Of a DNA stretch of 64,000 nucleotides, positions 26,117 to 63,516 are shown in pieces. The position numbers were made by a program, and so were the translations under genes. The stretch's first letter is position 1; each line of letters starts with the position of its first letter. The notes below the pieces were generated by a model, which was given only the letters and a program-made list of their open reading frames with translations, was not told where the DNA came from and did no database searches. This DNA comes from Nocardioides pocheonensis (GTDB lineage: Bacteria > Actinomycetota > Actinomycetes > Propionibacteriales > Nocardioidaceae), in NCBI RefSeq assembly GCF_003725535.1, contig NZ_RJSF01000046.1:140203-204202 (forward strand), given 5' to 3'.

Positions 26117-26150
26117 TGTGTAATAACGTATGCGTATTCCTAATGCAGAA
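26117..26150. promoter_or_regulatory. Paired 14-bp operator (site pair B)
   Basis: TGTGTAATAACGTA (26117) and TTCCTAATGCAGAA (26137) start exactly 20 bp apart. The first keeps only the right half-site CGTA; the second has TTC and GAA. The pair lies in the divergent promoter of the SDR operon (minus) and the CMD-fold gene (plus). Confidence 0.6.
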
Positions 26151-26311
26151 CAATCTTGACGGCGCAGAATACCCCCGCGCCGATGCCGGCCCGTGAACCG
26201 GGCACCCCTGGGTGGCCCCAACTCGAACGGACAACAACTCGTCGTCGCGGCGCCGGCTGTTCAGCGCGGCGCCCTTAGCAACTTCAAGCGCGCTTCTCGA
26301 AAGGTCACGTC

Positions 26312-26656
26312 ATGAATGAAAGCCTCAAAGCCATGCAGGCTGAGATGGGCGAGCACGTTGTCGAGGCGCACGCGCAGTACGCCACAGTGGACGAAGAGCT
26401 GTATGACGCATATCTTGCGTGGCGGAGCGCGATGCTCGATTCCGGAACAATCCCCCGCAAGGACAAGTTACTCATGGTCATCGCCCTCTTGACCGCGCAG
26501 CGCGACATCATGCCCCTCAAGTTGTATGCGCAAATCGCTCGGTCGCAGGGCGCCACAGCGCAAGAGCTCAAGGAGGCGTTGCGCGTCGGAATCCTCTTCT
26601 CGGGCGGTGCAGGCGTCGACGCCGCTTCCTCGGTCGTCGATCTCCTTGTCGACTAG
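26312..26656 (+). CDS. Carboxymuconolactone-decarboxylase-fold protein lacking the usual Cys
   Basis: A 114-residue all-helical AhpD/CMD-like protein. LLMVIALLTAQRDIMPLKLYAQIARSQG aligns with the family core, followed by GATAQELKEALRVGIL and GGAGVDAASS. In AhpD-like members a CxxC...H motif occurs in the core; here no cysteine is present, so it is not a peroxidatic enzyme and may be a decarboxylase/hydrolase-type or a structural relative. GAAAGGTCACGTC precedes the ATG. It is divergent from the SDR operon. Confidence 0.75.
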   Translation: MNESLKAMQAEMGEHVVEAHAQYATVDEELYDAYLAWRSAMLDSGTIPRKDKLLMVIALLTAQRDIMPLKLYAQIARSQGATAQELKEALRVGILFSGGAGVDAASSVVDLLVD

Positions 26657-27120
26657 TCACACGATATGCACCTGGCGCGGTAGGTCTACCCCCGAGATCG
26701 CACGGGTCAATGAAGACGCATCGGGGTCCTTCGGTGTAGTAAGCCTCCTGACCCAAACTGGGGTTCGCTCGACTCGGGCGGTTTCACAGCTAAACAATCG
26801 GGCCAGTAAGAGCCCGGCGTGTCGCGCCAGAGCTTCATCCGCAGGACAAGTGAACCTCCCCAGGCAGTCCTGTCACGCACTGGGAGCGCGGTGCTGCGGG
26901 CAGGATCACTACACATGACCGCCCATGTTGGCGCCGGGGCGCCTACGGTGACAGCGCACGGTAGGTGATCCCGAGACCTTGACGCGTGATGCTCGGACCA
27001 TAGCGGTTCTCTCGGCACGCGGGTCCTGGGTGGTTTGAACGCGCGTTTGTGATTCGCTGGTGGGTCTCCATCGGCGAAACATCAAATGACCTACCCACCT
27101 CCAGTGGCAGCGGCAGCAGA
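26657..27120. other. Convergent intergenic region, no gene seen
   Basis: About 460 bp between convergent genes. Only short shadow frames were seen. No operator pair of the island type and no convincing terminator were found by eye. Confidence 0.5.
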
Positions 27121-28608
27121 TCAGTCCAGGTAGGGCATCCGCGGCTCGGTCGACAGGTCCCACACAATGCCCTTGTGTCTGGTGTACATCTCCACGGCCG
27201 CGAAGCCGTACTCGACCCCGAAGCCGCTTCGCTTCGCGCCGCCGAAGGGCACTGTCGGATCAAAAGCGCGGTATGTGTTGACCCAGATCGTCCCGGCGTC
27301 GAGATTCTTCGCGAGGTGTTGGATAGCCCTGGCGTCGTTGCCCCACACTTGCGCACTCAGCCCGAACTCGGTGCCGTTCGCCCGGGCGACAGCCTCCTCC
27401 AGATCAGAAAACGGCATAAGGCTCGCCACAGGTCCGAATACCTCGGCCGTTGCCACCGGATTGTCATCCTCTACTCCGGCTAGGACCGTAGGCCGATAGA
27501 AGGCACCCGACGAAAGTTCAGCTCCGTCTGCGGGGCCGCCTCCAGCCAGGCATTCTGCACCCGCCTCGACGGCCCGGTGCACCAGGGCGTCCACCCGACT
27601 TCGATGCTGTTGGCTGATCAACGTGCCCATTTGCGAGCTGGCAGCTGTCGGCAGACCGACCCGGATGGCCGCTGCCCGCTTGGACACGTCAGAGCACACT
27701 TCGTCGTAGATCGATTGGTGCACGAGCACCCGAGAGCCGGCCACGCAGCTTTGACCGGATTTCACGAAGTTTGAGTGCAGAACGGAGGGGACCGCGGTTG
27801 CGAGATCTGCGTCCGGCAACAGGATGGCGGGGCTCTTCCCCCCGAGTTCGAGGATGACTGGAACGATGTTTGCGGCGGAGGAACGAATGATGGAACGCCC
27901 TGCGCTTTCGCTCCCGGTGAATGCGATCATCCCGATGCCCGGGTGCTCGGTGAGGATGGGGCCGACCACTGATCCTCGCCCCGTGACCACGTTCACTACA
28001 CCGGCGGGGATGCCCGCCGCGACAGCCAGTTCGACTACCTTGAACGTGTACAGTGGGGCGATCTCCGGCGCTTTCAGCACAATGCAGTTCCCGGCAATGA
28101 TCGCGGGAGCAGCTTTCATGACTACGAAGTTCGGGGTGCCGTTGTATGGGTTGACTCCTGCGACGACGCCGTACGGTTCCCTCACCCCGTAGGCCAGGCG
28201 ATCTCGCCTGTTCGAGTACGTCTTGCCCTCGATCTTGTCGGCCAATCCCGCGTAATACCGCAGCGTACGCACCGAAGCGTCGATGTCGCCGAGGACCTCG
28301 CTTCGAAGCAAACCGACTTCCGACACCTCAAGTTCTGCGAGCTCGTCTCGGTGATCGACGAGCGCATCCGCCCACGCGCTCAGCAGTTGACCACGCTTCT
28401 CGGGAGTCACGTACCTCCAGGTGTCAGCGAAGGCAGCCTGCGCCTGACCGACCACGAGGTCTATCTCCGACTCGCCTACCTCGTAGGCGCTGGCAATCAC
28501 CGTCCCGGTGGCTGGGTTGTACACCGGAAACCATTCCCCCCGATTAGGCCTCACGTGCCCGTCCGCCGACAGGTAGCCGAACCGCGGCAGGGGTGAGTCG
28601 TCAGTCAT
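27121..28608 (-). CDS. NAD(P)-dependent aldehyde dehydrogenase
   Basis: The 495-residue ALDH has GVVAGVNPYNGTPNF, FTGSESAGR, LELGGKSPAIL (general-base Glu), GQSCVAGSR (nucleophilic Cys) and TAEVFGPVASLMPF, with the tail PFGGAKRSGFGVEYG. Full length and intact. It is co-transcribed with the upstream metallo-hydrolase (8-nt overlap), so it may oxidise an aldehyde formed downstream of that hydrolase. Substrate not assignable. Confidence 0.93.
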   Translation of the reverse strand: MTDDSPLPRFGYLSADGHVRPNRGEWFPVYNPATGTVIASAYEVGESEIDLVVGQAQAAFADTWRYVTPEKRGQLLSAWADALVDHRDELAELEVSEVGLLRSEVLGDIDASVRTLRYYAGLADKIEGKTYSNRRDRLAYGVREPYGVVAGVNPYNGTPNFVVMKAAPAIIAGNCIVLKAPEIAPLYTFKVVELAVAAGIPAGVVNVVTGRGSVVGPILTEHPGIGMIAFTGSESAGRSIIRSSAANIVPVILELGGKSPAILLPDADLATAVPSVLHSNFVKSGQSCVAGSRVLVHQSIYDEVCSDVSKRAAAIRVGLPTAASSQMGTLISQQHRSRVDALVHRAVEAGAECLAGGGPADGAELSSGAFYRPTVLAGVEDDNPVATAEVFGPVASLMPFSDLEEAVARANGTEFGLSAQVWGNDARAIQHLAKNLDAGTIWVNTYRAFDPTVPFGGAKRSGFGVEYGFAAVEMYTRHKGIVWDLSTEPRMPYLD

Positions 28609-29532: not shown

Positions 29533-29566
29533 TTCACGTAGCCGTACGATAGTACGTTAATACGAA
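29533..29566. promoter_or_regulatory. Paired 14-bp operator (site pair A)
   Basis: TTCACGTAGCCGTA (29533) and TACGTTAATACGAA (29553) start exactly 20 bp apart. Both have TWC-N8-GWA. They lie in the 395-bp divergent promoter between the MBL/ALDH operon and the serine hydrolase gene. Nothing else in that intergenic stretch looks coding. Confidence 0.75.
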
Positions 29567-29808
29567 CCTTCGCCGGGGTCAACGTGCCGCCTCAATGCCA
29601 TTACGCAACTCGCGAGCTTCGAAGTGACTTGAGAGCCCCACAGCGACCCTCGGTTGGGGCCATTCCGACTCGAGTCGTTGCCTTGGGCCAAGGGACAGTC
29701 AGGCCTGGTTCACCTGCGGATGGCGCCTGCCGTAGTTTCCTGAAGCTCTTGCACCGCTTGTGAAGATCGGGTTACGTTTTGATTCGCAATCGCAGATAGG
29801 GGTTCGTC

Positions 29809-31002
29809 ATGTCGAACACAGTTGACCGGTCCGCGGCAGCACCCGCCGTCGCCTCTCTAGCGCAGCTTGTCGACGACGCCGTCAGTGACGGCGTGGCGCC
29901 ATTCCTGGTCGCGATGGTTGCTGATCGGGACGGAGTTCGGTGGCAGCATTGCGCGGGCTTAGCCAACGCGACACATCCTGCGAGCCCAGACTCCGTACTT
30001 AGCATCTTCTCGGCCACGAAGGCTGTGGGTGGACTGATGGCCGTCATGGCCATCGATCGAGGCCTCATCACGATGGACACGCCGGTCGGCGATGTGCTTC
30101 CGCAGTTCGACAAGTTGCAGGTGCTTGAGTCCGTAGGCCCAAACGGACCTGTGTTCCGCAAACCCAAGCGGCGCGCGACCCTGCGTCACCTACTCACGCA
30201 CACCAGTGGAATGGGTCTCGAGTTCTACTACCCCTTGATGGCGGAGTACGCGGCCAGGACAGGCGCACCCTCCGACGTCACAGGCACCTTCGAGTCACTC
30301 AATTACCCGTTGCTGTTCGACCCGGGCGAGGATTTCGCTTACGGGATTGGGCTTGATTGGGTGGGTGCGCTAGTGGCGGAACTGGATGGACGGTCCATCG
30401 ATCGCTTCGTGCAAGAGGAGATCCTCGAGCCGCTCGGAATGAAGCACACATACTTCGAGCGGGCCGCGGCGGGGGACCAACTTGCCACGATCAGGCTCAA
30501 GCGGCCGGACGGCGAGTTCGAGCCCATGGAAAACTTCCTGCCAGAAAACCCTGAGATCTACCACATGGGGTACGCGCTGTACTCAAGCTCGGCGGACTAC
30601 TTGACTTTCCTCCGCCTGGTACTCAATGAGGGCGAGCTGGATGGTCGGCGACTTGTCAGCCCCGAGGCGATGCAGCTTATGTACACCGATCAGCTTCCCG
30701 GTGTGGCGCTTCCGACGCCCATCCTGAAGAGTTCGGCTGCCATCATCTGTGACACCGAGCCCTGTCCCGGCACCCGCAAGACCCACACGGCCGGCTTCTT
30801 CCGCAACGAGGATGCCCTGCCGGGCATGCGCAACGTTGGCTCCCTGTTCTGGGGAGGAGCGCTGAATACCCACTATTGGGCAGATCCCCACGCTGGAATT
30901 GCTGCTGTGTTCATGACACAGATGTCGCCGTTCTTCGAGCCTCGACTCATGGAGCGCTTCACGGAATTCGAACGAACGGTGTATCGCGACCTGGTGAACT
31001 GA
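29809..31002 (+). CDS. Serine hydrolase, class C beta-lactamase/EstB-like esterase
   Basis: The 397-residue protein has the catalytic tetrad S68-A-T-K71 (IFSATK), LRHLLTHTSGMG, PGEDFAYGIGLDW (Tyr region) and GGALNTHYWADPHAGIAAV, as in EstB-type beta-lactamase-fold esterases. No signal peptide is visible, so it is cytoplasmic. It probably hydrolyses an ester or lactone of the island substrate. It is divergent from the MBL hydrolase, so two hydrolases share a control region. Confidence 0.86.
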   Translation: MSNTVDRSAAAPAVASLAQLVDDAVSDGVAPFLVAMVADRDGVRWQHCAGLANATHPASPDSVLSIFSATKAVGGLMAVMAIDRGLITMDTPVGDVLPQFDKLQVLESVGPNGPVFRKPKRRATLRHLLTHTSGMGLEFYYPLMAEYAARTGAPSDVTGTFESLNYPLLFDPGEDFAYGIGLDWVGALVAELDGRSIDRFVQEEILEPLGMKHTYFERAAAGDQLATIRLKRPDGEFEPMENFLPENPEIYHMGYALYSSSADYLTFLRLVLNEGELDGRRLVSPEAMQLMYTDQLPGVALPTPILKSSAAIICDTEPCPGTRKTHTAGFFRNEDALPGMRNVGSLFWGGALNTHYWADPHAGIAAVFMTQMSPFFEPRLMERFTEFERTVYRDLVN

Positions 31003-31220: not shown

Positions 31221-32705
31221 TCAGGTTGTCAAGTCCTCGGAGGAGCGCAGGTTGTTTACCAAGCCACCCGGAAGTGCGATGCTCTTCAGTTCGTAGTAGC
31301 TCTCAATGCCTTCGCGGCCGTTCTCCCGGCCGAAACCCGACTGTTTCACTCCGCCGAAAGGTCCTCCGCCGCCACCGCCGGGGCTTTCGTTGATCCGACA
31401 GCTCCCGGTTTCCAGGCGTAGTGCAACCTCGAGGCCGCGCTCCTCGTCGCTCGTGAAGACCGCGCCGCCGAGCCCGTAATCCGAGTCGTTGGCAAACGCG
31501 ACCGCTTGATCGACGGTGTCATACGCAGTGAGGGTGAGTACTGGTCCGAAGATTTCGTCGCGCGCGATCGTCATAGAGTTCTCGACTCCCCCGAAGATGG
31601 TGGGCTGCACGAACCACCCACGCTCGCCCTGAGGCCGGCCGCCTCCGTAGAGGAGCGTGGCCCCCTCACTCTTCCCGAGCGCGATGTACTGCTCGACACG
31701 GTCACGCTGGCGTTCGGCTACAAGCGGCCCGATGTCGGTTTCTGGGTCGTGAGGGTCTCCGACCACCAGCGCGGCGACCGCCTCGACAAGGCGCTCCGTC
31801 ACCTCTGCGGCCCGCTTGCGTGGGATCAATAGACGGGTGGTGGCATGGCAAACCTGTCCAGTATTCGGGAGGGAACTCGCGATGAGGTGGGGCATCATTG
31901 CATCGAGGTCGACATCATCGAGAACAATTGCCGCGGACTTTCCCCCCAGCTCAACCGACACGCGCGCGAGCCGTTCCCCACACAGGGCCGCCACGCGGCG
32001 ACCGGCTGCAGTGCTTCCGGTGAATGCCACGCGGGACACTCCATTCCGGCTGATGAGGTACTCGCTCACTTCGCGTCCGCCAGGCAGGATGCTGAGTACA
32101 CCGGACGGGATTCCTGACCTCACCGCAGCGTCGGCCAGGAACGAGGCCGACAACGGCGTTTCCGGCGCCGGCTTCAGGATCAGTGGGCATCCCGCGATTA
32201 GTGCCGCGTAGATCTTTCCGAGCGCCGTCGCGATGGGTCCGTTCCATGGGATAACCGACGCGGTGACGCCGACGGGTTGCCGATCCACGAGCACCTTGCC
32301 CGAAGAACCGTCACGCGTCTCGCGCGGCGGAATGGTCAAGGCGTCTGCCACATACTTTGATGCTGCCTCGATGCGCCCAGCCGTAGTAGCGCGTATCCAC
32401 TTGTCTGGGCCTCCCATCTCGTCGATCTGGAGTTGGACGATCTCGTCGAGGTGAGGCTGCAGCTCGGCAGAAAAGCGCATGAGATATTCGCCCCGCTCGG
32501 CTACCGCCAGCTGGCGCCAATCACCGGCGGCGTGAACAGCCACGGCTGCGGCGACTGCGCGATCGACGTCGGCCTCACTCGCGGCTGGGGTCGTACCGAC
32601 CAGCGCTTCGGTGGTCGGTGAGAATACAGAAATTCGCTCATCGCTAGCTGGAGCGATCCACTCCCCGCCGATGAACAAGTACTGATTCTCAATCACCGCA
32701 TCCAT
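31221..32705 (-). CDS. NAD(P)-dependent aldehyde dehydrogenase
   Basis: The 494-residue ALDH has GVTASVIPWNGPIATALGKI, FTGSTAAGRRV, VELGGKSAAIVLDD (Glu), NTGQVCHATTRLLIP (Cys) and ARDEIFGPVLTL, ending FGGVKQSGFGREN. It is a single-gene unit with its own promoter region and two operator pairs upstream. The general substrate class is aliphatic or aromatic aldehydes; nothing more specific is visible. Confidence 0.93.
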   Translation of the reverse strand: MDAVIENQYLFIGGEWIAPASDERISVFSPTTEALVGTTPAASEADVDRAVAAAVAVHAAGDWRQLAVAERGEYLMRFSAELQPHLDEIVQLQIDEMGGPDKWIRATTAGRIEAASKYVADALTIPPRETRDGSSGKVLVDRQPVGVTASVIPWNGPIATALGKIYAALIAGCPLILKPAPETPLSASFLADAAVRSGIPSGVLSILPGGREVSEYLISRNGVSRVAFTGSTAAGRRVAALCGERLARVSVELGGKSAAIVLDDVDLDAMMPHLIASSLPNTGQVCHATTRLLIPRKRAAEVTERLVEAVAALVVGDPHDPETDIGPLVAERQRDRVEQYIALGKSEGATLLYGGGRPQGERGWFVQPTIFGGVENSMTIARDEIFGPVLTLTAYDTVDQAVAFANDSDYGLGGAVFTSDEERGLEVALRLETGSCRINESPGGGGGGPFGGVKQSGFGRENGREGIESYYELKSIALPGGLVNNLRSSEDLTT

Positions 32706-32794: not shown

Positions 32795-32828
32795 TTCATC
32801 TTCCCGAATATAAATATGATAACTCGAA
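32795..32828. promoter_or_regulatory. Paired 14-bp operator (site pair C)
   Basis: TTCATCTTCCCGAA (32795) and TATGATAACTCGAA (32815) start exactly 20 bp apart. The pair is centred about 105 bp upstream of the aldehyde dehydrogenase start at 32705. Confidence 0.65.
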
Positions 32829-32967: not shown

Positions 32968-33001
32968 GTCGTGCTAAAGAACCGCTGTTCGTAGATATGA
33001 A
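32968..33001. promoter_or_regulatory. Paired 14-bp operator (site pair D)
   Basis: GTCGTGCTAAAGAA (32968) and TTCGTAGATATGAA (32988) start exactly 20 bp apart. They lie about 270 bp upstream of the aldehyde dehydrogenase and between no clearly intact genes. They could be a distal site for that gene or the relic promoter of a lost plus-strand gene. Confidence 0.55.
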
Positions 33002-33579: not shown

Positions 33580-34251
33580 TCAGACGTCAGTCACTCTCAC
33601 TCCGGAATGCGCCTTGTACCGACGGTTGACGCTGATCAGGTTCGCCGTCAAGGCCTCGACCTGATGAGCATTCCGCAACCGGCCGCCGTACACGCCGCGA
33701 ACGCCGGGGACCGTGTCAGCCAATGCCTGCACCATGTCGGTGGCCGCACGGTCATCTCCCAGCACCAACACATCAGTGTCCACTGAGTTCACGTCCGGGT
33801 CGTTGAGCAGCGCCGCGCTGACGTTATGAAAAGCGCCGACCACCGTGGATTCGGTGAGTATCACTGCGGCTTGCTCGGTCGCCGAGCCCTCCTCCACTCT
33901 GAGGGCGAACGCTCCATGCCGGTCGAACCCGAGCGGGTTGACGCAATCGACCACGACCTTGCCACCGAGTTGCCCTTTGAGCTGGCCCAGAAGGTCCGCG
34001 TGACCTTCCCACGGCACCACGATCAGCACGACATCTGCAGCTTTCGCCGCCTGGGCGTTCGAGGCACCTGACACTTCAGCCCCTGTCGCCTCGGAGATCT
34101 CTGCGGCCACCTGTTCCGCGTTCTTCGCCACCCGGCTCCCGATGACGACCGAGAGACCAGCAGCCGCGAAACGACGTGCCAAGCCCCGCCCCTGTGGTCC
34201 GGTTCCCCCAAGGACCGCGAAGGTCATTTCAGCCAAACTCGAGTCAGTCAT
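33580..34251 (-). CDS. NADPH-dependent F420 reductase
   Basis: A protein of about 223 residues of the Fno/Npd family: FAVLGGTGPQGRGLARRFAAAG (NADP motif with SRVAKNAE), VLIVVPWEGH, VVDCVNPLGF, AFHNVSAALL and VYGGRLRNAHQVEALTANLI. It reduces coenzyme F420 with NADPH, supplying F420H2 for enzymes such as the LLM oxidoreductase at 58491. The ATG at 34251 has GGAG eight bases upstream. It is the last gene of the ABC-transporter transcription unit, 69 bp after the importer fusion. Confidence 0.92.
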   Translation of the reverse strand: MTDSSLAEMTFAVLGGTGPQGRGLARRFAAAGLSVVIGSRVAKNAEQVAAEISEATGAEVSGASNAQAAKAADVVLIVVPWEGHADLLGQLKGQLGGKVVVDCVNPLGFDRHGAFALRVEEGSATEQAAVILTESTVVGAFHNVSAALLNDPDVNSVDTDVLVLGDDRAATDMVQALADTVPGVRGVYGGRLRNAHQVEALTANLISVNRRYKAHSGVRVTDV

Positions 34252-34334
34252 GTGTACAAGCTCCATGAAGCGCAGTTAGCGTCCAGCGGTCGCGCCGTTC
34301 GGCCGCACCGCCGAGTTGCGGGTGCTTGGGTCAC

Positions 34335-36869
34335 CTAAGATCTGCCGGCACGGACACGCTCAGCGGCCGCGTAAATCCCCACAGCGACGAATAGGACAAG
34401 GCCGTACAAGGTCTGCTTCGCCGCATCCGGGAGGTTGAGCAGGGGCGTGACGTTGTCGATGAGCGACAGGAAGATCGCGCCGAGCACGGCTCCGACGAAT
34501 GATCCACGACCCCCGCTGAGGACGGCGCCGCCGAGAAAGACGGCGGTAAAGCAGGGCAAGGCATAGCCCAAGCCCACGTCGTTGGTCCCGATGCCGGTCA
34601 GGGAAGCGAGAAACACGCCGGCCACGACTGCACCGAAGGCGCAGACGACCAGGCCCATCGAGCAGATCAGCGCGACCCGTCGACCAACCCGGTTGCTAGC
34701 TTGAGGATCGAAACCGATCGCGCGATGCGCGAGACCACCATGCGAGCGGTACATCCAAAGTTCTAGCGCGACCGCGATGGCGATGAGAACGAGGAACGGA
34801 AACGGGATGAAACCGACGCCCCAGCTGAAGGACTCCCCAAGGTCCGGCGCGATAAGACCGCCGGGTTCAGGTCGAAGGATGATTGCGATTCCCTGAATGA
34901 TTCCCGTGGTCGCGATTGTGGCCACGATCGGGTTGACCTTGAGCACCCCGATGAGGAAGGCGTTGAACCCGCCCACGGCCAACCCACCCAGGATCAAGAC
35001 GGGGATCGCCAGAGCTAGTGACCCCTGACTGACGTCGGGGAGCGTGAGAGACAGAAGCACCACCGTTAAGCTCATTGTCGCGCCAACGGAGATGTCGAGT
35101 CCGCCGGTGAGCATTGTGAACTGCTGGCCTAGGGCTACGAAGGCGAGCGGCAGGCTGAGTAGCAAGAGGTTCGCGAGGTTGGGGCCTGTCCAGAAGACAG
35201 GTGACTGGGTACCCGTGTAGATCGCGAGCAGGGTACACAGGAGCAGTAGCACCAGTATCGAGATCTGAGACGACCCTCTGCTGAGCAGTCTCGTAAGGGC
35301 CGATGGATGATTCGACGCCGCGGTGCTCTGCTCCGCCAGGCCAGCAGCACTCACGAAGCTGCGGACGATCTCGTTCTCTGAGGTTGGTCCGACGATCTCG
35401 CGCGTAACCTTCCCGCGGGACATGACGTACACCCGGTCACACAGACCAGCGAGCTCCGATGAGTCTGATGAGTTCACCAACACGGCCGTGCCATCTTCCG
35501 CGGCGTCCGCCAACATGCGGTAGATGTCCATGCGCGCCTTGGCATCGACACCTTGAGTGGGCTCGTCGACGACAAGCACCTTCGGTTGACGCAGTGCTGG
35601 TCGCGCCAGTACCACTTTCTGCTGATTACCGCCCGAGAGTGCACTGATCGGTTGGAAGGGCGAGGCGGTGACAATCCCAAACTGCTTCGCTGACCGTCGG
35701 AACATCGCGCGCAGGCGACCAAAGACGGCCAATCCGAACGGGCCGCCGGCGGAGCCGGCATGGAGTGTCAGGTTATCCATCACAGACAGCGGGAGGTACA
35801 CCGACTCCGCAGCGCGGTCGCCGCTCTGGAAACTGATGCCAGCTGTCGTGGCCGCGACAGGGTTGCGTCGGGTGATCCTCTTGGCGTCCACCTCGATATC
35901 GCCACCCGTGCGGCCCATGCCGATAAGTCCACGGAGCAGGGCACGCTGCCCATTGCCCTCGGCACCCGCAAGTCCGACGATCTCTCGCGCGCGTACGGAT
36001 AGGGAGATTGGCCCGTAGCCCGGTCCGGTTAGGTCTCGAACGACGAGCCGCTCTGTCTCCGACGAAGGGCGCTGCCGACTCGGGAACTCCAGCTCGGTGG
36101 GCGCTCCGACCATGAGCTCGACAATGTCGTCAACGTTCCACCCGTCCGACGTGTACGTGCCTTGTAGGACGCCGTCGCGAATCACAGACAGTCGGTCCGC
36201 AATGCGGCGCACCTCCTCCAGCCGATGGCTGACGTAGACGATGGCAGTTCCAGCGCTGCGCGCTTGTTTGATGAGTTCTTCGAGATGCGCCGCGAGATGC
36301 ATGTCCAATGCGGCGGTGGGCTCGTCGAGCAGCAGGACCCTCGGCTCGTGACACATCGCTCGCGCGACCTCGAGGAGCTGACGAGCGCCCGGGCCGAGCG
36401 CGGAGACTGAGTCGGTGGTCTTGAAGGGCAGTTCGTAACGGTCAAGGATCTCGCTGAGATCCATTGGCCGCGGCTGCCCGATCGCGTCGAAGGACAGCGC
36501 CAGATTGTCAGCGACCGTTAGTTCGGCGACGAGCGAAGTGTCCTGGTACGCCGTCATCAGCCCGAGCCGACGGGCCTCCCTGGTACCACCGCGCGAGAAC
36601 GGCTTCTCAGCGATGTAGACCTCACCGGCGTCAGGGGTCAGCACGCCGGCAGCGATCTTGATCAGGGTCGACTTCCCCGAGCCGTTCTCCCCAACCAAGG
36701 CGTGTACCTCGCCGGGCCTGCAGTCGAACGTCACGTTGTCGAGCGCCTTCACGCCCGGAAACGTCTTGGAGATACCGGTCAGCAGGACTGCCGTCTCGTC
36801 GGACCGATAAGGTGCCGCATCAGTCTCGTTCAACACAACATTGCTCGTTCCGTCCATCACGGCCTTCAC
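34335..36869 (-). CDS. Sugar-type ABC importer, ATPase-ATPase-permease fusion
   Basis: An 844-residue fusion. Residues about 25-255 are NBD1 with Walker A GENGSGKST, a weak signature (ALGPGARQ) and Walker B VLLLDEPTA. Residues about 260-500 are NBD2 with the usual degenerate P-loop (GAEGNGQR), signature LSGGNQQK and VLVVDEPTQGVD. Residues about 545-840 are an RbsC/AraH-type permease with about eight to ten membrane helices (LTGGLDISVG, PIVATIATTGIIQG). In standard RbsA/RbsC systems these are two proteins. With the separate permease at 38244 it may form a heterodimeric channel. Confidence 0.93.
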   Translation of the reverse strand: MKAVMDGTSNVVLNETDAAPYRSDETAVLLTGISKTFPGVKALDNVTFDCRPGEVHALVGENGSGKSTLIKIAAGVLTPDAGEVYIAEKPFSRGGTREARRLGLMTAYQDTSLVAELTVADNLALSFDAIGQPRPMDLSEILDRYELPFKTTDSVSALGPGARQLLEVARAMCHEPRVLLLDEPTAALDMHLAAHLEELIKQARSAGTAIVYVSHRLEEVRRIADRLSVIRDGVLQGTYTSDGWNVDDIVELMVGAPTELEFPSRQRPSSETERLVVRDLTGPGYGPISLSVRAREIVGLAGAEGNGQRALLRGLIGMGRTGGDIEVDAKRITRRNPVAATTAGISFQSGDRAAESVYLPLSVMDNLTLHAGSAGGPFGLAVFGRLRAMFRRSAKQFGIVTASPFQPISALSGGNQQKVVLARPALRQPKVLVVDEPTQGVDAKARMDIYRMLADAAEDGTAVLVNSSDSSELAGLCDRVYVMSRGKVTREIVGPTSENEIVRSFVSAAGLAEQSTAASNHPSALTRLLSRGSSQISILVLLLLCTLLAIYTGTQSPVFWTGPNLANLLLLSLPLAFVALGQQFTMLTGGLDISVGATMSLTVVLLSLTLPDVSQGSLALAIPVLILGGLAVGGFNAFLIGVLKVNPIVATIATTGIIQGIAIILRPEPGGLIAPDLGESFSWGVGFIPFPFLVLIAIAVALELWMYRSHGGLAHRAIGFDPQASNRVGRRVALICSMGLVVCAFGAVVAGVFLASLTGIGTNDVGLGYALPCFTAVFLGGAVLSGGRGSFVGAVLGAIFLSLIDNVTPLLNLPDAAKQTLYGLVLFVAVGIYAAAERVRAGRS

Positions 36870-44000: not shown

Positions 44001-44093
44001 CTGATCTCCTCTACACCGCGACATCAGTCGATCGCTGTCCAGCAATTGGGATCGCAAGCTGGCGAAAGACTCGGCCATCTCGGCATGCGTGAT

Positions 44094-47133: not shown

Positions 47134-47134
47134 G

Positions 47135-48947: not shown

Positions 48948-48985
48948 TGGTGTGCCTTTCTTGGTGATTGCAGCAAAGAGGTCTG

Positions 48986-49804: not shown

Positions 49805-50568
49805 CGCGGGGGCATTCTTATCGCGCCGTCGAGTCGGACGGTCTCGCCGTTTACGTACGAGTTCTCTAGCAGCGTCACGGCCATCGCGGCATAGTCCTCA
49901 GGTGCCCCGAGACGGCGGGGGTGCGGAACCGCGCTTGCAAGCGCCTCCCGCAAGTCGTCCCGAAGTCGCGCCAGCATGGCGGTGTCAAACGTGCCCGGCG
50001 CAATCGTGTTGACTCGGATCTGCCGGCTGGCCAGGTCTCGCGCCGCCACCAAGGTCATGCCATGGACAGCGGCCTTCGACGCCGTGTAGGCCGTTTGACC
50101 TATCTGGCCATCGAACGCAGCGATCGACGCCGTCAGCACGATGGCTCCCCGATCGCCGCCCAGTACATCGTTCGAGGCCATTCTGGCCGCCGCGAGCCGG
50201 AGCACGTTGTAGGTACCGAACAGATTGACTTCGACGACGTTGCGGAAACTATCGAAATCCCCCGGCTTCCCATCCCGGTCGACAATGCGCAGGCGGTCAC
50301 CACCGCGGCCTGCGCAGTGCACGACTGCCCGGAGGGTGCCGAGCCGCTCGGCGGCGTCGAATGCCGCACCAAGCGCCAGTTCGTCGAGGATGTCCGCCGG
50401 GGCGAACACGGTGCCGTGACCGAGTGACTCTGCCGCCTCGGTTCCCGCCGAGTTGGGTAGGTCGACCAGGACGACGCGAGCACCCCGCGCAACCAAGTCG
50501 GCGGCGGTCGCGAGCCCCAGACCGGACGCACCTCCGGTCACGAGTGCCGATTGTCCGCTGAGGTTCAC
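49801..50568 (-). CDS. SDR, 3-hydroxyacyl-CoA dehydrogenase type II-like
   Basis: A 255-residue SDR: VNLSGQSALVTGGASGLGLATAADLVARG, VLVDLPNSAG, CAGRGGDRLRIVDRDGKPGD, YTASKAAVHGM and PGTFDTAMLA. The insertion RDGKPGDFDSFRNVVEVNLFGTYNVLRLAA is typical of HSD17B10-type 3-hydroxyacyl-CoA dehydrogenases, fitting a beta-oxidation step before the thiolase next door. The GTG at 50568 has AAAGGG upstream; the longer frame is not the start. Confidence 0.9.
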   Translation of the reverse strand: MNLSGQSALVTGGASGLGLATAADLVARGARVVLVDLPNSAGTEAAESLGHGTVFAPADILDELALGAAFDAAERLGTLRAVVHCAGRGGDRLRIVDRDGKPGDFDSFRNVVEVNLFGTYNVLRLAAARMASNDVLGGDRGAIVLTASIAAFDGQIGQTAYTASKAAVHGMTLVAARDLASRQIRVNTIAPGTFDTAMLARLRDDLREALASAVPHPRRLGAPEDYAAMAVTLLENSYVNGETVRLDGAIRMPPR

Positions 50569-50614
50569 TCGTTGTGCCCTTTCGTAGTCTCGTGGTTCGC
50601 TCGCCCGTCCATGC

Positions 50615-51751: not shown

Positions 51752-51820
51752 GAGCTTCCCCTCCCCCGTGTGCCGGTGGGTAATGTCGGACCTGCCGCGC
51801 GTTGGCCCCCCGGTCCGGGG

Positions 51821-55082: not shown

Positions 55083-55159
55083 GATGTCCTTCTCGGTAGT
55101 GCCAGTTGGTTCGTACGGATTGATCACTGTGGGATCACCCGCGGTGCCCTCGAGCGTTG

Positions 55160-56527
55160 TTAGTCCTGGAAGATCGAGGTGCAGGTGGGAAGCACCTTCA
55201 CCGATGGGAGAGCGTCTACCTTCTGGAGGAGGTCGAACAGCTCGCGCGACTCTGAATCGGTGTGCGTCTTCGCCGTGCACTCGCGGAACTTGCCCCAAAG
55301 CTGCTCTGTCGTGAGCGGGTCGCTCGCATGCCCAGGGATCGTGGCGATGGGACCGCTCTCGAGAACCTCGCCGCTCTTGAAGCGCAGAGTCACGGACTCG
55401 GTGGGTGAGAAGACCGGGTCGCGCTCGTCGTACTCGTCGACAGGGACGAGCCTGACCTTCGGAAAGAAGGCTTGGATGTCCGGCCGTTGGACGACCTCAT
55501 CGGCAAGTTCCGGCACGCCCATCTTGCCTAGGATCACCGCCGCAGCGATCCCGAACTGACCGCTGAACTCAGCCTCCCAACGCGTCTGCGGACGCTCATA
55601 CACAAGGCAGGTGACCTGGCCCCTGCCCATGCGCACCTCCACGGACTCGACCTCATCCGGATCGACGTCCCGGCCGGCGAGCATGGCAACGGTTCCGTTG
55701 AAGGAGCGGTGCAGGAAGTAGCAGGTGGGGTGCAGCTTGATAAGTAGCTTGTGTGTCGGGAGATACCACTCCTTCCCCAGTTTGGAGTCTGAGGTCAGAT
55801 CCGGCTCCCTTTGGGTCGAATAGGCCATCAAGAAGCCCTGCGGGTTCTCAATCGCGTCGTGACCAGCGGACATTCCGGCAGCAGCAAGACGAGCCGCTTC
55901 CAGGCCACCTCGCGCGGCCAGGCCGGCGTGGTAACCCTTCATCATGGAGCCGAAGTTGGAAAACAGCCCACCGGCGTAACTGCCGGCGATTGCGACGGCG
56001 GCGGCAGCACGGTCTGCGGGCAGCCCACGGAGCACCGCACCAGCGGCAGCTGCGGCCATGGCTCCGAAAACCGACGTCGGGTGCCATCCCTTGGCGTGGT
56101 AGCTGCGATCGCGCCGCCACAGCTCGCACCACACCTCGTACCCTGCTACGTATGCCGTAACAACGTCGCGACCGTCCGAGCCCAGGAACTCGGCTTCAGC
56201 CAGGATAGCCGGCACGAGCACCGCGCTGGGATGTCCTGACATCGACTGGTCGTCGTAGTCGAGCGAGTGTGCGATGGCCCCGGCAAGGAGCGCTGCTTCT
56301 GGCGCGGCGACGCGCTCGGACGACAGGCACGACCGCGCCTCCGCCGCGCCCAGCGGCCGCGCCAGAGTTTTGCGGACGACCTCGGCCACCGGCTGATCGA
56401 TGCCGACCATGATGACCGCAACGGTGTCGGTGAACGCGTCGCGGACCATGGGAAGGACCTCCGGCGGTAGGTCGTCGTACGTCACCGAGGCGAGGAACTC
56501 GCCGATGTCAGAAGTCAGTGATCCCAC
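55160..56527 (-). CDS. MmgE/PrpD family protein
   Basis: A protein of about 455 residues, the most divergent of the three MmgE/PrpD proteins: DAFTDTVAVIMVGID, AGAIAHSLDYDDQSMSGHPS (active-site Asp and His), AAAAAGAVLRGLPADRAAAAV and GYHAGLAARGGLEAARLAA. The C-terminal lid contains KLHPTCYFLHRSFN. The GTG at 56527 has AAGGAG upstream. First gene of the nine-gene operon. A hydro-lyase, decarboxylase or epimerase role on a polycarboxylate is inferred from the family. Confidence 0.87.
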   Translation of the reverse strand: MGSLTSDIGEFLASVTYDDLPPEVLPMVRDAFTDTVAVIMVGIDQPVAEVVRKTLARPLGAAEARSCLSSERVAAPEAALLAGAIAHSLDYDDQSMSGHPSAVLVPAILAEAEFLGSDGRDVVTAYVAGYEVWCELWRRDRSYHAKGWHPTSVFGAMAAAAAGAVLRGLPADRAAAAVAIAGSYAGGLFSNFGSMMKGYHAGLAARGGLEAARLAAAGMSAGHDAIENPQGFLMAYSTQREPDLTSDSKLGKEWYLPTHKLLIKLHPTCYFLHRSFNGTVAMLAGRDVDPDEVESVEVRMGRGQVTCLVYERPQTRWEAEFSGQFGIAAAVILGKMGVPELADEVVQRPDIQAFFPKVRLVPVDEYDERDPVFSPTESVTLRFKSGEVLESGPIATIPGHASDPLTTEQLWGKFRECTAKTHTDSESRELFDLLQKVDALPSVKVLPTCTSIFQD

Positions 56528-56616
56528 CCGATGTCTCCTTATATGACAGGTCCGCGACTCGAACTCGACAGACATCTGGGTGTCGGACTGCAGAACCCGA
56601 GACCCTCTGTGATGTG

Positions 56617-56650
56617 TTCGGTATTTCGAAGGACCATTCGTGATTGCGTA
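56617..56650. promoter_or_regulatory. Paired 14-bp operator (site pair K)
   Basis: TTCGGTATTTCGAA (56617) and TTCGTGATTGCGTA (56637) start exactly 20 bp apart, and both are good matches. They lie in the 391-bp divergent promoter region between the nine-gene operon (minus) and the VOC gene (plus). The rest of the region shows no gene. Confidence 0.85.
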
Positions 56651-58490: not shown

Positions 58491-59441
58491 TCATAGCCTC
58501 CCGAGGACGTCGCGCTGGAAGGCCTGCATCTCTTCCACGACTACCTCGGCTCGCTGATGCTCGAAGCGGAAGTCGATGGCAGTGACACCGAGGTCACGCA
58601 CAACGTTGAGATCAGACGCGAAATCAGCATCGCCGCCGGCAAACAGGCGACGCGTCCCGTCGCTCGCCGTCGGGGATAGGCGATGTCCATGCTCGGCGAC
58701 CCGCAAGGCGATGTCGATGGAGCCCGGGTCGCGGCCAGCGGCTTCCGCAAGGTCCCGAAGTCGTCCGATACCGGCCTGGAGTCGATCGACAGTGTCCAAT
58801 GGCTTCGACTGGTCGTTCATCATCGGATACCACGCGTCCCCCAGCCGGGCAGCGCGGCGCATCGCGGGACCACTCATCCCCCCAATCCACAGCGGCGGGT
58901 GTGGTCTCTGAGCCGGCTTGGGCTCCAAGCCAATGCCGTAGACCTGGATGTGCTCGCCTTCGTACTCGACGACCTCCTCAGTCCACAGCAGCTTCATGAC
59001 CTCCAGGTACTCATCGGTGACACGGCCCCGCCTTTCGAAGGCAGGAGCGCCCAAGGCTTCGAACTCGTCCTTGATCCATCCGGTTCCCGCCCCCACCGTC
59101 ACCCGCCCACCTGACAGCACGTCGATCGTGGCCAACATCTTGGCTGCGAGAACGGGCGGGCGATAGGGCACCACCATGACCGCCGTCACGAAGCGCAAAG
59201 CGCGAGTGCGGCCCGCAAGAAAGGCAATCGTCGTGACCTGTTCATGACAGCGGCCGTAACCGATATCGGTGTCGCCTTCGTCGCTGTTGTTGTACTTGGC
59301 CCGCAGAGACCGCTGGACAACCATGTGGTCGAAGACAGTGGTGTAGTCGAAGCCAAGCCGCTCCCCTTCCATCACCAGATCGGCGAGCTCTTGCGTATCA
59401 GTCATGGCACGGGGCGTTCGAACATCGAATCCGATGTGCAT
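58491..59441 (-). CDS. LLM-class F420-dependent oxidoreductase
   Basis: A protein of about 316 residues of the luciferase-like TIM-barrel family: MHIGFDVRTPRAMTDTQELA, VTAVMVVPYRPPVLAAKMLATIDVLSGGRVTVGAGTGW, PPLWIGGMSGPAMRRAARLGDAWYP. In this group the pattern SGGR and the loop after it usually bind F420 rather than FMN. A cytoplasmic oxidoreductase using F420/F420H2, possibly fed by the NADPH-F420 reductase at 33580. The ATG at 59441 was chosen over the frame opening at 59516. Confidence 0.9.
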   Translation of the reverse strand: MHIGFDVRTPRAMTDTQELADLVMEGERLGFDYTTVFDHMVVQRSLRAKYNNSDEGDTDIGYGRCHEQVTTIAFLAGRTRALRFVTAVMVVPYRPPVLAAKMLATIDVLSGGRVTVGAGTGWIKDEFEALGAPAFERRGRVTDEYLEVMKLLWTEEVVEYEGEHIQVYGIGLEPKPAQRPHPPLWIGGMSGPAMRRAARLGDAWYPMMNDQSKPLDTVDRLQAGIGRLRDLAEAAGRDPGSIDIALRVAEHGHRLSPTASDGTRRLFAGGDADFASDLNVVRDLGVTAIDFRFEHQRAEVVVEEMQAFQRDVLGRL

Positions 59442-59545
59442 CGGCGCGGGCTCCTTCTGCAAGTAGGTCCAGGGACGGCACCGCGTTCCCGTCGGAACGG
59501 CCAGCGGCGCGCGCACTGCACTGTCCCTTCTAGAGTAGCGCGGCG

Positions 59546-59579
59546 TTCTCTTTTACGTATGCTAGGTCTAGATGATGAA
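59546..59579. promoter_or_regulatory. Paired 14-bp operator (site pair L)
   Basis: TTCTCTTTTACGTA (59546) and GTCTAGATGATGAA (59566) start exactly 20 bp apart. They lie between the divergent LLM oxidoreductase (minus) and SDR (plus) genes, about 110 bp from either start. Confidence 0.65.
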
Positions 59580-60478: not shown

Positions 60479-60512
60479 TTCGTTATCACGAATCTCGACG
60501 TGATATTATGAA
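60479..60512. promoter_or_regulatory. Paired 14-bp operator (site pair M)
   Basis: TTCGTTATCACGAA (60479) is a near-perfect palindrome. CGTGATATTATGAA (60499) starts exactly 20 bp later and keeps only the right half-site. TATCACG/CGTGATA also pair across the two sites. About 45-80 bp upstream of the CMD gene at 60558. Confidence 0.7.
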
Positions 60513-60557: not shown

Positions 60558-60944
60558 GTGGTGGATGTAGATCGCTATGAACAAGGCGTCCGCATTCGGC
60601 GCGAGGTACACGGTGACGAGGTCGTCGACGCTATACACGACGCCACCGATGCGTTTTCGCAGCCGATGCAGGACCTCCTCAACGAGTATTGCTGGGGAAC
60701 GGTCTGGAGCCGCACTGGCCTGGATCGGCGGAGCCGGAGCATCCTCAACATCGGGATGTTGGCTGCGCTGAACCAGCCTGATGCGCTTGCCGGACATATG
60801 CGCTCCGCTCTGAACAACGGGGTCAGCTGGACGGAGATCCGTGAGTGCCTTCTTCAGGTTGCGGTGTACGTCGGCATGCCGGCCGCGCTCGCCGCGTTTG
60901 AGGTCGCGCGAAAGGTTCGAGCGGAGACCGATGCGCTTGGCTGA
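60558..60944 (+). CDS. Carboxymuconolactone decarboxylase family protein
   Basis: A 128-residue helical protein like 4-carboxymuconolactone decarboxylases: YCWGTVWSRTGLDRRSRSIL, NIGMLAALNQPDALAGHMRSALNNGVSWTEIRECLLQVAVYVGMPAALAA carries the family His in GHMRSAL. It begins at GTG (60558 or 60561) after GGAGG. Many relatives in catabolic clusters are unassigned. Confidence 0.88.
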   Translation: MVDVDRYEQGVRIRREVHGDEVVDAIHDATDAFSQPMQDLLNEYCWGTVWSRTGLDRRSRSILNIGMLAALNQPDALAGHMRSALNNGVSWTEIRECLLQVAVYVGMPAALAAFEVARKVRAETDALG

Positions 60945-61103: not shown

Positions 61104-62399
61104 ATGAAGTACCTCGTCCGTGAGTACGCCGACGACGACCTCGACCACGTGTTGCACCTGTGGGACGAAACAGCCTCGCTCGGTCAGCTGAGCATCTTCA
61201 CAGTGGGCGAGTGCCTGGCCGCACTACAGGCCCATCATCCGGCAACCGTCGCGATCAGCGACGGCAGGCTAATTGGTGTCGCCGTGGCACGTGTCGACGA
61301 TGACCGCGCGTGGATCATGCGGATCGCAGTACACCCCCAACGCCGCGGGGAAGGGGTTCCCAGCGCACTTTTAGGCAGCCTTGAGCGCCTGCTCCTCACA
61401 CGAGGGTCACGACGAATCGCTTACGTCCTTCCCCACGAAGAGCGCATAGCCGAAGGCCTCACCAAGGCGGGCTACAACCGTCACCCTGCGATCGCCTACT
61501 ACGAGAAGCGCGAGGGCCTCGGCCCCGGAGAAGCCTCAATGCTCGAAGTTCTCGGAGGCCAGGTACTTCCGGCGGGCCTCTGGGAAGACCTCTCCGGGAT
61601 GAAGTTCGAAAAGGAACTGATCGAGTCACGCATTGTTGCCCCTCTCCAACACCGTGAGTCCGCTCGGGCGAACGGGCTTGAGCCGCCACGGTCGGTGGTT
61701 CTCTTCGGCCCTCCTGGGACCGGAAAGACCACCTTCGCTCGTGCGATCGCCAGCCGCTTGGGTTGGCCGTTCGTCGAGATCTATCCGTCCCGCCTGACGG
61801 CGGAATCTGGTGGGCTCGCAGCGGGACTGCGAGGCACCTTCGAGTGTGTCAGCCGGCTCGAGAAAGTGGTTGTCTTCATCGACGAAGTCGAGGAAATCGC
61901 GCCTGAGCGCACGTTCCCCCCTCTGGGTGAACCAGGGAGGGGAGCGCACGGTGTTGTCAACGAGATGCTCAAGATCATTCCCGCTTTCCGGGAACGCGAC
62001 GCTCGCCTCCTCATTTGCGCCACGAACTCCGTGCGGAGTCTGGATCGAGCGTTTCTTCGCCCGGGACGGTTTGATTACCTCATCCCCGTCGGGCCTCCGG
62101 ACGACGAGGCACGTGCGGCAATGTGGTCACGCCTGGTCCTGCGAGCGGAACGGTTGGACGTCGACATCGACCGCCTAGTCGCAGCGTCGAACTCTCTGAC
62201 GCCAGCCGACATAAGTCAGTGCGCTCAGGCTGCTGCTCATCAAGCATTTGCCCGCGAGATGCGTGGCGTGGGCCCCAGCGGCGCCCGAGGCGCAACGACG
62301 GAGGACTACCTCCATGCACTCGCCCAAGTGCGGCCAAGCGTCTCCGAGGAAAGCATTGCCCAGTTCCGACAGGACATAGACCAGTTCGCCCGGACCTGA
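61104..62399 (+). CDS. GNAT acetyltransferase - AAA+ ATPase fusion protein
   Basis: The 431-residue protein combines two domains. Residues about 1-145 form a GNAT fold with the acetyl-CoA-type loop AVHPQRRGEGVPSALLGSLE (around 75-94). Residues about 160-400 form an AAA+ domain with Walker A GPPGTGKT (202-209), Walker B VVVFIDEVEE (255-264), sensor-1 ATN (306-308) and RPGRFD (319-324), close to CDC48/FtsH-type ATPases. The GNAT motif A is QRRGEG with weak flanking sites. It is a soluble protein without signal or TM segments. Such a fusion could remodel or acetylate an enzyme of the pathway, but no function is established. Confidence 0.85.
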   Translation: MKYLVREYADDDLDHVLHLWDETASLGQLSIFTVGECLAALQAHHPATVAISDGRLIGVAVARVDDDRAWIMRIAVHPQRRGEGVPSALLGSLERLLLTRGSRRIAYVLPHEERIAEGLTKAGYNRHPAIAYYEKREGLGPGEASMLEVLGGQVLPAGLWEDLSGMKFEKELIESRIVAPLQHRESARANGLEPPRSVVLFGPPGTGKTTFARAIASRLGWPFVEIYPSRLTAESGGLAAGLRGTFECVSRLEKVVVFIDEVEEIAPERTFPPLGEPGRGAHGVVNEMLKIIPAFRERDARLLICATNSVRSLDRAFLRPGRFDYLIPVGPPDDEARAAMWSRLVLRAERLDVDIDRLVAASNSLTPADISQCAQAAAHQAFAREMRGVGPSGARGATTEDYLHALAQVRPSVSEESIAQFRQDIDQFART

Positions 62400-62443
62400 C
62401 GCCAACCTGACGAGCCGCGGCGTCGCAGCGGTCGTGACCCAGT

Positions 62444-62465
62444 GCTTCCTAGTCGCTTCCTAGTC
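62444..62465. repeat. 11-bp tandem duplication over a stop codon
   Basis: GCTTCCTAGTC occurs twice in a row. The right copy contains the TAG stop of the minus-strand SDR, so a second in-frame-looking CTAG lies just beyond it. Probably a recent slippage event in the convergent gap; no function is evident. Confidence 0.8.
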
Positions 62466-63377
62466 GCGCGGAACCGTCGTAGTGCCGGCGGCCTGCGCGA
62501 GCTCCGCAATGCGCCGCCCGGTGAAGTGGGTGATGCCGGGCGGCTGGGAGGACATGCCAGCGTCGACGGGGAACACCGCGCCCGTGATGTAGCGGCCTGT
62601 CTCAGCCGCGAGGAACAGCATCGCATCGGAGATCACTCGTGGTTCGATCCAGGGAATTGGCAGCTGGTTCACCGAGGTGAGGACATACTCCATGTCCTTG
62701 TACGTCGGGTTCTCGACGCCTGGGACGAACCTGGTCAGGTTGGCCTCATTGAGAATCAACGGCGTCGCGACGTTGGTCGGGCACACGAGGTTTACCCGGA
62801 TCCAGTGCGGCGAAAGGTCGGCCGCGAGGCACTTCGTCAACCCGACCAGTGCGTGCTTAGCCGCGGTGTACCCCGCGTTGTTGTAGATCGGCACCAGGGA
62901 AGCCGCCGAGCCGGTGATGATGATCGAGCCGCCCTCGTTCTTGAGGTACGGGACAGTTGCAGACACGGTGCGGAAGACCGCGTTCAGGTTGATCGCGACC
63001 ACAGTATCGAACACCTCGTCGGTGTCTTCGTCCTCGAGAGTATGACCGCGACCGATTCCGGCGTTCGCGATGACGGTGTCTAGCCTGCCGAGCTCGGTGA
63101 CTCCTTCGGCCGCCGCCTCACGCAGTTGAGCACTGTCCCGAGCGTCCGCGCGCAAAGCCACGCACCGGCGCCCGAGGTTCTCCACCATCTTGGCGGTCTC
63201 CTGCAGGTCCTCGGCGGTGCCCAGTGGATAGCGGACGAAAGGAATGTCCTCGCAGATGTCGAGGGCGATGACATCGGCCCCTTCCTCGGCGAACCTGACT
63301 GCATGCGAGCGGCCCTGGCCGCGAGCAGCACCTGTAATCAGGACGACCCGCCCATCCATCTGTCCCATTCCTGACAC
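62460..63377 (-). CDS. Mycofactocin-coupled SDR oxidoreductase
   Basis: A 305-residue SDR of the mycofactocin-dependent subfamily (SDR_subfam_1/TIGR03971 type): GRVVLITGAARGQGRSHAVR, FAEEGADVIALDICEDI with the characteristic YPLGTAEDLQETAKMVENLGRR insertion, ANAGIGRGHT, INLNAVFRTVSA, YTAAKHALVGLTK and VDAGMSSQPP. Its tightly held NAD needs mycofactocin as electron acceptor, linking this island to the mft cluster at 11.4-18.1 kb. It may oxidise an alcohol of the pathway. Divergent from the IclR-type gene. Confidence 0.92.
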   Translation of the reverse strand: MSGMGQMDGRVVLITGAARGQGRSHAVRFAEEGADVIALDICEDIPFVRYPLGTAEDLQETAKMVENLGRRCVALRADARDSAQLREAAAEGVTELGRLDTVIANAGIGRGHTLEDEDTDEVFDTVVAINLNAVFRTVSATVPYLKNEGGSIIITGSAASLVPIYNNAGYTAAKHALVGLTKCLAADLSPHWIRVNLVCPTNVATPLILNEANLTRFVPGVENPTYKDMEYVLTSVNQLPIPWIEPRVISDAMLFLAAETGRYITGAVFPVDAGMSSQPPGITHFTGRRIAELAQAAGTTTVPRD

Positions 63378-63482
63378 TCCTCACCATGAACCGCCGCGGC
63401 GACAAGCCACACGCGCCTGCTTCCCCAACTGATAGAGCCTCTTAGGTAGAGCGTCCGGTCCGACGGGGCAGTCCAATGCAGA

Positions 63483-63516
63483 TTCATTAATACGAATCGC
63501 AAAACCGTATATCGAA
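63483..63516. promoter_or_regulatory. Paired 14-bp operator (site pair N)
   Basis: TTCATTAATACGAA (63483) and AACCGTATATCGAA (63503) start exactly 20 bp apart. They lie in the 284-bp divergent promoter between the mycofactocin-type SDR (minus) and the IclR-family gene (plus), where an autoregulatory site would be expected. Confidence 0.75.

Follow-up and report, generated by a model that had tools for sequence, protein, structure and literature searches.

In the accessible passages of a comparative survey of IclR-family regulators (Suvorova and Gelfand 2021, PMC8222616), tandem palindromes whose centres lie 18-22 bp apart are described in 94 of 181 IclR groups and are read as sites of tetramer binding, the consensus of group 1 being GKTYCRYW3-4RYGRAMC. 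According to the same passages, an IclR protein usually regulates its own expression and that of one or two operons next to it, with regulogs that reach 55 Clusters of Orthologous Groups (COGs). Here we describe a 34-bp double palindrome that recurs across an accessory island of Nocardioides pocheonensis, in a stretch of 64,000 nt (the window; C45:140203-204202, contig NZ_RJSF01000046.1) from a 4.92-Mb draft genome of 50 contigs and 4,923,121 bases. The motif, its spacing, its confinement to the island, its co-occurrence with one IclR clade and a fixed distance from a TTGAC element in over half of the sites were all observed directly. We consider it likely, with good confidence, that the IclR-family protein encoded from 63662 (window coordinates are used unless a contig or locus is named) recognises this element as its operator and is the repressor of an island-wide regulon.

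A double palindrome with a fixed 20-bp spacing

The operator unit is a palindrome of 14-16 bp resembling RTTCGTWATWACGAAY, refined to approximately YRTTCGTWATWACGAAYR, and units are paired at a start-to-start distance of exactly 20 bp far more often than expected by chance. The resulting 34-bp element contains four half-sites at 10-bp intervals along a single face of the DNA. All 13 pairs proposed by a first-pass annotation of this sequence were present; when both units were summed, 12 of them matched 12-16 of the 16 specified positions, while the pair at 41125 matched 11. Requiring a total of at least 14 matches and at least 6 in each unit, we found 8 pairs at spacing 20 and 0-3 at the other spacings from 14 to 60. 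In 30 sequences simulated with a third-order Markov model, such pairs averaged 0.23 and never exceeded 1. Positions that the search pattern leaves unspecified (unit bases 5-10 and the bases just outside) were informative too, the aligned profile presenting an AT-rich centre, a purine before and a pyrimidine after each unit. Since bases outside the search pattern carry information, the motif is more than the pattern itself. A refined unit matrix detected 19 partner matches at +20, while no other distance up to 60 gave more than 3; this excess is not independent because the matrix was built from the same island sites.

A symmetric two-unit matrix, after retraining on the matches that it had produced, was run over 123 kb of contig C45 (the window and its flanks). 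Results showed 24 matches of at least 11 bits, 23 of which spanned 18550 to 69748; those at 32988, 56637 and 69728 were overlapping registers of stronger pairs. Five shuffles of the scanned stretch gave 0-2 matches of at least 11 bits each, with a top score of 17.8. The first-pass site list needed some revision: its 13 sites occupy only 10 intergenic regions, given that 32795/32968, 40983/41125 and 44086/44184 share one; the pair placed at 44094 exists in a register that was off by 8 bp, the better pair starting at 44086; and four pairs had been missed, at 26027 and 29783 in the window and at 66284 and 69748 beyond it. The statement that operon-internal gaps lack the motif held, as no pair of at least 11 bits was found in 44.2-56.6 kb or 33.1-39.3 kb.

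Confinement to one island

A sequence-only model of 18 sites (R1) was searched against the whole genome at E ≤ 10. It returned 23 rows corresponding to 16 places, all of them in the island, from C45:166228 to 209983, and nothing outside the island reached that level in the 4,923,121 bases; 18550 and 41125 fell below the cut. All 16 places were training sites, so that the informative part of this result is the absence elsewhere. With a second model (R2), all rows fell in a single stretch each of this genome (22 rows), Phycicoccus (12), pRWAY01 (15) and a Rhodococcus opacus plasmid (18); many of these rows were training sites, but they included two untrained Phycicoccus places, C7:429753 and 467477. 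Under stricter filters, with at most 23 candidates scored per genome among the matches listed, R2 at E ≤ 0.1 matched 2 of the 292 other genomes of the order.

Both of these control matches were taken as unrelated. One (G210) lies partly over the 3′ end of an open frame for guanylate kinase; the other (G051), which is left unexplained, comprises three pairs near glycoside genes in a 19-kb stretch without an IclR protein resembling P0001. At L064:9042, 9532 and 11673, in another genome, three similar pairs lie near a GH43 glycosidase gene, a histidinol dehydrogenase-family gene and an ABC importer, in the 19-kb stretch without a P0001-like IclR protein.

The regulon sits in an accessory stretch. 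At E ≤ 1e-100, the island gene for a thiamine pyrophosphate (TPP) enzyme was found in 1 of 24 genomes of the genus, namely this one. Between -8 kb and 16 kb the G+C content is 0.67-0.74, and between 16 kb and about 85 kb it is 0.61-0.67; since it is also 0.645-0.683 from -20 to -8 kb, composition alone does not set the island borders. The genome encodes six other IclR_C proteins, and no pair was found in the 3.5-kb loci of the four that were scanned (L001-L004).

The motif accompanies an IclR clade in other genera

The IclR-family gene occupies 63662-64438 on the plus strand (in the window to 64000) and encodes the proposed repressor, a protein of 258 aa with HTH_IclR (42.7 bits) and IclR_C (69.7 bits) domains, the Pfam cut-offs being 22 and 24. 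It scored 56.4 bits with the model of the PcaR/PcaU/PobR subfamily (TIGR02431; cut-off 284.75) and 60.6 bits with that of BhcR (NF045644; cut-off 350), and is assigned to neither. The pair at 63483-63516 ends 146 bp before the start of this gene. Close relatives are rare: 3 of 293 genomes of the order at E ≤ 1e-20, including this one, and 1 of 394 genomes of the class at E ≤ 1e-25, which is this one. Relatives were located on Rhodococcus megaplasmids (48-50% identity) and in 18 genome loci, among them one of Phycicoccus (62%). The genome loci came from an alignment search; a search of genome contigs with P0001 alone detected none, and viral contigs yielded no IclR relatives either. The four IclR proteins surrounded by many sites formed one clade in the tree with 100/100 support, although the bootstrap was not fully settled.

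We applied the island-trained matrix unchanged, and therefore blind, to the homolog loci. At a threshold of 24 bits or more there were 10 pairs in 40.7 kb around the pRWAY01 homolog, 11 on the plasmid of R. opacus VOC-14 and 4 in 20.7 kb of Phycicoccus Soil802, where shuffles peaked at 14.0, 12.1 and 10.0 bits, respectively. The R. koreensis R85 plasmid, close kin of the R. opacus plasmid and scanned without a shuffle control, also carried 11. A unit-only scan of L033, L036, L037 and L040 found 23 pairs at distance 20, L033 and L037 having one site in common, and no other distance gave more than 7. Among the 18 genome loci, eight contained a pair of at least 19.5 bits: Phycicoccus, Sciscionella, two Mycobacterium, two Streptomyces and two Brevibacterium. 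The single pair of Sciscionella, the two Mycobacterium and Streptomyces silaceus often stood just upstream of the IclR gene; the Brevibacterium pairs lay about 4.4 kb from it. Scores were low in Streptomyces silaceus (19.5 bits) and Sciscionella (22.4 bits), and single shuffles of some other loci reached 21.3 (L034), 23.4 (L047) and 23.8 (L055) bits, so lone pairs near 20-25 bits are weak evidence. Whole-genome searches with R2 at E ≤ 1 gave no match in the M. angelicum, S. iconiensis and Tamaricihabitans genomes and a single place in the Sciscionella genome, on a contig other than that of the IclR locus; the single-site cases thus rest on the locus scans. Near the CoA-ester lyase genes of pRWAY01, a second IclR homolog (L037:15462-16190, 41% identity) has no pair nearby and presumably uses another site.

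The motif tracks the regulator rather than the enzymes. Phycicoccus shares with the island an operon for MmgE, TPP enzyme, aldehyde dehydrogenase (ALDH), thiolase, short-chain dehydrogenase/reductase (SDR), enoyl-CoA hydratase (ECH), VOC protein and acyl-CoA dehydrogenase (ACAD) at 75-86% identity, as well as an ATPase-permease fusion (71%), a ligase (70% across the portion inside the locus) and a hydratase (66%); the operator before its MmgE operon differs in sequence from that of the island and keeps the same register, with TTGAC at 30 and 31. On the Rhodococcus plasmids, most genes around the IclR gene differ from those of the island, and of the island proteins compared only IclR (about 50%) and one aldehyde dehydrogenase (64%, R. 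opacus) reach 50% identity. Sphingobium pEP1 and Paracoccus pBEN encode a related TPP enzyme (65-70%) and acyl-CoA ligase (63-64%), the pEP1 IclR protein is 21% identical to that of the island, and R2 found 0 matches on these two plasmids. An enzyme-linked motif was rejected, given that enzymes are shared without the motif and IclR is shared with it. The reading of the first-pass annotation, with one regulon, an IclR regulator and a dimer of dimers, agrees with these data, and the spacing that it proposed to check in homologous islands is kept: the same double palindrome and spacing surround homologous IclR genes in other genera. The IclR gene from 63662 very probably encodes the regulator of the pairs, and the case for this protein as the binder appears strong.

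Coupling of the proposed operator to a predicted promoter

We tabulated 42 pairs (18 from the island, 12 from Rhodococcus, 4 from Phycicoccus and 8 others) for a TTGAC sequence, the core of a -35 element, reading towards the operator. In 12 of the 42, TTGAC started 16-17 bp upstream of the operator, with a second copy at 29 in one of these, and in another 13 the distance was 29-32 bp; the expected number was 3.6 over all 55 distances and both sides. In the 16-17 class, a spacer of 17-18 bp leads to TANNNT at operator positions 8-13 in 12 of 12 sites. This predicted -10 hexamer falls within the first palindrome, a placement that would account for the CGTA variants of the motif. In the 29-32 class, the predicted -10 abuts the operator edge. 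Two Phycicoccus sites that were obtained later and lay outside the discovery of this rule, L067:2801 and 6480, have TTGAC at 16 bp. Of 30 sites, among them three of the four later ones (the fourth has no TTGAC), 25 had a predicted direction that coincided with the first open frame of a crude caller, and four of the five misses (56617, L033_18104, L033_29433 and L040_1245) look like caller errors by annotation, Pfam or homology. With the -10 in or abutting the operator and the second palindrome over the predicted start site, the geometry is that of a repressor that would block the polymerase. The first-pass annotation made no mention of this coupling. The promoter-locked operator predicts a repressor with moderate strength. 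A title in the reference list of PMC8222616 indicates an overlap between the IclR site and the aceBAK promoter.

Proposed mechanism and alternatives

We propose that two IclR dimers, probably as a tetramer, would occupy the four half-sites of each operator. In the ligand-free state, the protein would mask the -10 hexamer and the start region and thereby exclude RNA polymerase; a pathway substrate or intermediate would release it. About sixteen promoter-operators would in this way join the genes for uptake, hydrolysis, oxidation and beta-oxidation in one co-induced regulon with a common inducer. The tetramer, the release by ligand and the common inducer are inferred, and repression rather than activation is favoured with moderate confidence.

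Several observations weigh against this proposal. Ten of the 18 homologous genome loci lack a convincing pair: nine have none of at least 15 bits (two Saccharopolyspora, Tamaricihabitans, Pseudonocardia, three Nocardia and two Burkholderiales), and in R. jostii (L047) the pair scores below its own shuffle maximum. The 42 sites are not all independent, two Mycobacterium loci being near-identical. An exact TTGAC within 60 bp is missing in 10 of 18 island sites and 15 of 42 overall, two sites have it at other distances (38 and 19), and in the 29-32 class a full TANNNT occurs in only 8 of 13, even when the spacer may range over 15-19. Among the four later sites, TTGAC is absent at L066:8753 and lies at 22 in L068:7925. 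The direction miss L048_9288 stands, some agreements in direction rest on short or distant frames, and in some cases no more than 21-46 bp separate the operator from the predicted gene start. Furthermore, IclR proteins are able to act as activators.

The last point leads to the possibility, which we rate as unlikely, that the IclR protein binds these sites and acts mainly as an activator, the double site serving the promoter on its other side. PcaU/PobR-type IclR proteins act as activators, and the nearest NCBIfam models of the island protein include PcaR/PcaU/PobR, far below the cut-off (see above); divergent regions such as 44086/44184 and 40983/41125 also give each gene a more distant operator. 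However, in 25 of 42 sites the TTGAC distances put the -10 within the operator or immediately ahead of it, and the unbroken series of in-register TANNNT hexamers in the 16-17 class likewise points to repression. Binding by another regulator of the island, either the LuxR-type ATPase protein (19071-21392) or a PucR-type protein past the window, is very improbable: although the weak pair at 18550 is near the LuxR-type gene, the 40.7-kb stretch of pRWAY01 lists only Lsr2, mIHF and IclR as DNA-binding candidates (in incomplete gene tables), and in different genera the occurrence of the site follows that of IclR homologs, which it directly precedes in Sciscionella and the two Mycobacterium loci. 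A core-genome regulator was discarded as binder because there is no motif match outside the island. That the pairs are conserved DNA of another kind, such as a repeat element or a methylation or replication signal, would fit their palindromic nature and many copies, but is barely credible when the copies vary widely in sequence and keep only the pattern, are intergenic, often at a fixed distance from TTGAC, and are absent elsewhere in the genome at that score. Chance or selection bias as the origin of the motif was ruled out by the Markov controls, the unselected positions, the blind loci and the whole-genome search.

Repression by the IclR protein from 63662 also admits a broader reading, which we offer tentatively and as doubtful. 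This repressor clade might be carried by islands and megaplasmids together with a portable promoter-operator cassette whose repressor site incorporates the -10 in either of two registers about 14 bp apart, and captured genes might join the regulon by acquiring the 34-bp cassette. If so, whole catabolic islands would become one switch, with the operator pattern kept and not its sequence. Pattern and spacing do persist across families while sequence and gene content change. The island offers a testable case of horizontally acquired catabolic genes under one local switch, with regulator, operator and promoter geometry named, and material for an inducible promoter once the ligand is found.

Sites and genes of the island

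Six sites are assigned to the minus strand. The added pair at 26027-26060, with TTGACC at 16 bp and a TACTGT that falls within the first palindrome, faces the SDR gene 25114-25911. TTGACC with a 17-bp spacer is followed by TAACGT at 29533-29566, facing lactonase-like and aldehyde dehydrogenase genes, by TATCAT at 32795-32828, facing the aldehyde dehydrogenase gene 31221-32705, and by a TACATT that abuts the operator at 56617-56650, facing genes for MmgE/PrpD, TPP enzyme, ALDH, thiolase, SDR, ECH, VOC protein, ACAD and acyl-CoA ligase. The site at 39368-39401 (TTGACA, 18-bp spacer, TAGCGT) faces ABC permease, binding protein and ATPase-permease genes and is overlapped by the longest permease frame, from 39464, the permease start being uncertain; 40983-41016 has TTGACA at 38 bp and faces 39871-40959. 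On the plus strand, 26117-26150 has TAACGT in the -10 register and a weak -35 (TTGCTC), 41125-41158, with a weak first unit, has TTGACC at 19 bp and an 18-bp spacer before TATTCT, and 44184-44217 has TATCGT in the -10 register and precedes the ECH gene 44238-45014.

The remaining sites are given without strand. These are 29783-29816, an added pair of moderate score close to where the beta-lactamase-fold gene 29809-31002 begins; 32968-33001 and the re-registered 44086-44119, both found by the matrix and the whole-genome model; 59546-59579, between a luciferase-like monooxygenase gene and an SDR gene; 60479-60512, preceding the carboxymuconolactone decarboxylase-family gene 60558-60944; and 63483-63516, in the gap between the SDR gene 62460-63377 and the IclR gene, a candidate autoregulatory operator. 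A strong single palindrome (63577-63590, 17.9 bits) without a partner at 20 bp lies between this last pair and the IclR start. Past the window, 66284 and 69748 are further good pairs by the two-unit matrix. Weak and doubtful pairs are 18550-18583, upstream of the LuxR-type ATPase regulator gene and not recovered by the whole-genome model, 56816 and 64897 (score 17.2); 11351 (20.0) is a weak pair outside the main run.

Pfam searches of the island identified aldehyde dehydrogenases, SDRs, MmgE/PrpD proteins, a TPP enzyme (its nearest chains being those of BbmA and acetolactate synthase), enoyl-CoA hydratases, an acyl-CoA dehydrogenase, a thiolase and an acyl-CoA ligase, together with a sugar-type ABC importer, a lactonase-like hydrolase, an F420-type oxidoreductase (33580-34266) and a luciferase-like monooxygenase (58491-59516); the last two suggest F420-dependent chemistry. 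From these families we infer a pathway that may comprise uptake, ring opening or C-C cleavage beside a carbonyl, oxidation to an acid, CoA activation and beta-oxidation. The literature searched for a pathway with this enzyme set gave none matching. The MmgE/PrpD, TPP enzyme, ALDH, acyl-CoA ligase and ACAD set (45040-56575; loci L034, L035 and L040) recurs at about 61-70% identity on Sphingobium pEP1 and Paracoccus versutus pBEN, and most of it in Phycicoccus at 70-86%, so that the pathway crosses phyla. The Phycicoccus pair L066:8753-8786 stands just before a methylmalonyl-CoA mutase gene, a position hinting at a substrate that yields propionyl-CoA. Two proteins combine domains: 34335-36869 encodes an 844-aa fusion of a sugar-type ABC ATPase and its permease, with a 71% copy in Phycicoccus, and 61104-62399 has a GNAT acetyltransferase domain ahead of an AAA ATPase domain.

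Comparison with known systems

No paper on this regulator or operator was recognised among the matches listed in the literature searched, most subscription journals being outside its scope, and the same incomplete literature, without supplements, gave no description of so many operators under one local IclR protein, of confinement to a single island or of two promoter registers. TtgV (PDB 2xrn/2xro) is an IclR-family relative (phmmer, 42.4 bits). It binds cooperatively as a tetramer to one operator of different sequence and controls few promoters.

Compared by site only, NpdR of Rhodococcus opacus HL PM-1, an actinobacterial catabolic repressor, recognises GTTCMRYATMRTGAWS, close to the island unit, but the available passages of PMC8222616 give it no tandem arrangement. 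According to the same passages, PcaU, PobR and HmgR also use half-sites beyond one palindrome, three half-sites there as opposed to two full palindromes here. The closest likeness is to group 1 of that survey: 36 units matched its consensus at a mean of 12.6 of 18 positions compared with 7.0 in the background, and 27 of the 36 reached at least 12, against 1.2% of background positions. The 20-bp distance between palindrome centres, in the island as in loci outside the training set, falls within the 18-22 bp range, and a dimer of dimers on one DNA face would fit the tandem habit described for the family. The tandem architecture is, therefore, already known. What sets this locus apart is its size, with about 16 operators over one island instead of the usual one or two operons, its island confinement, and its promoter coupling, the sites being placed here relative to the -35 and -10 elements and in the passages of PMC8222616 relative to gene starts.

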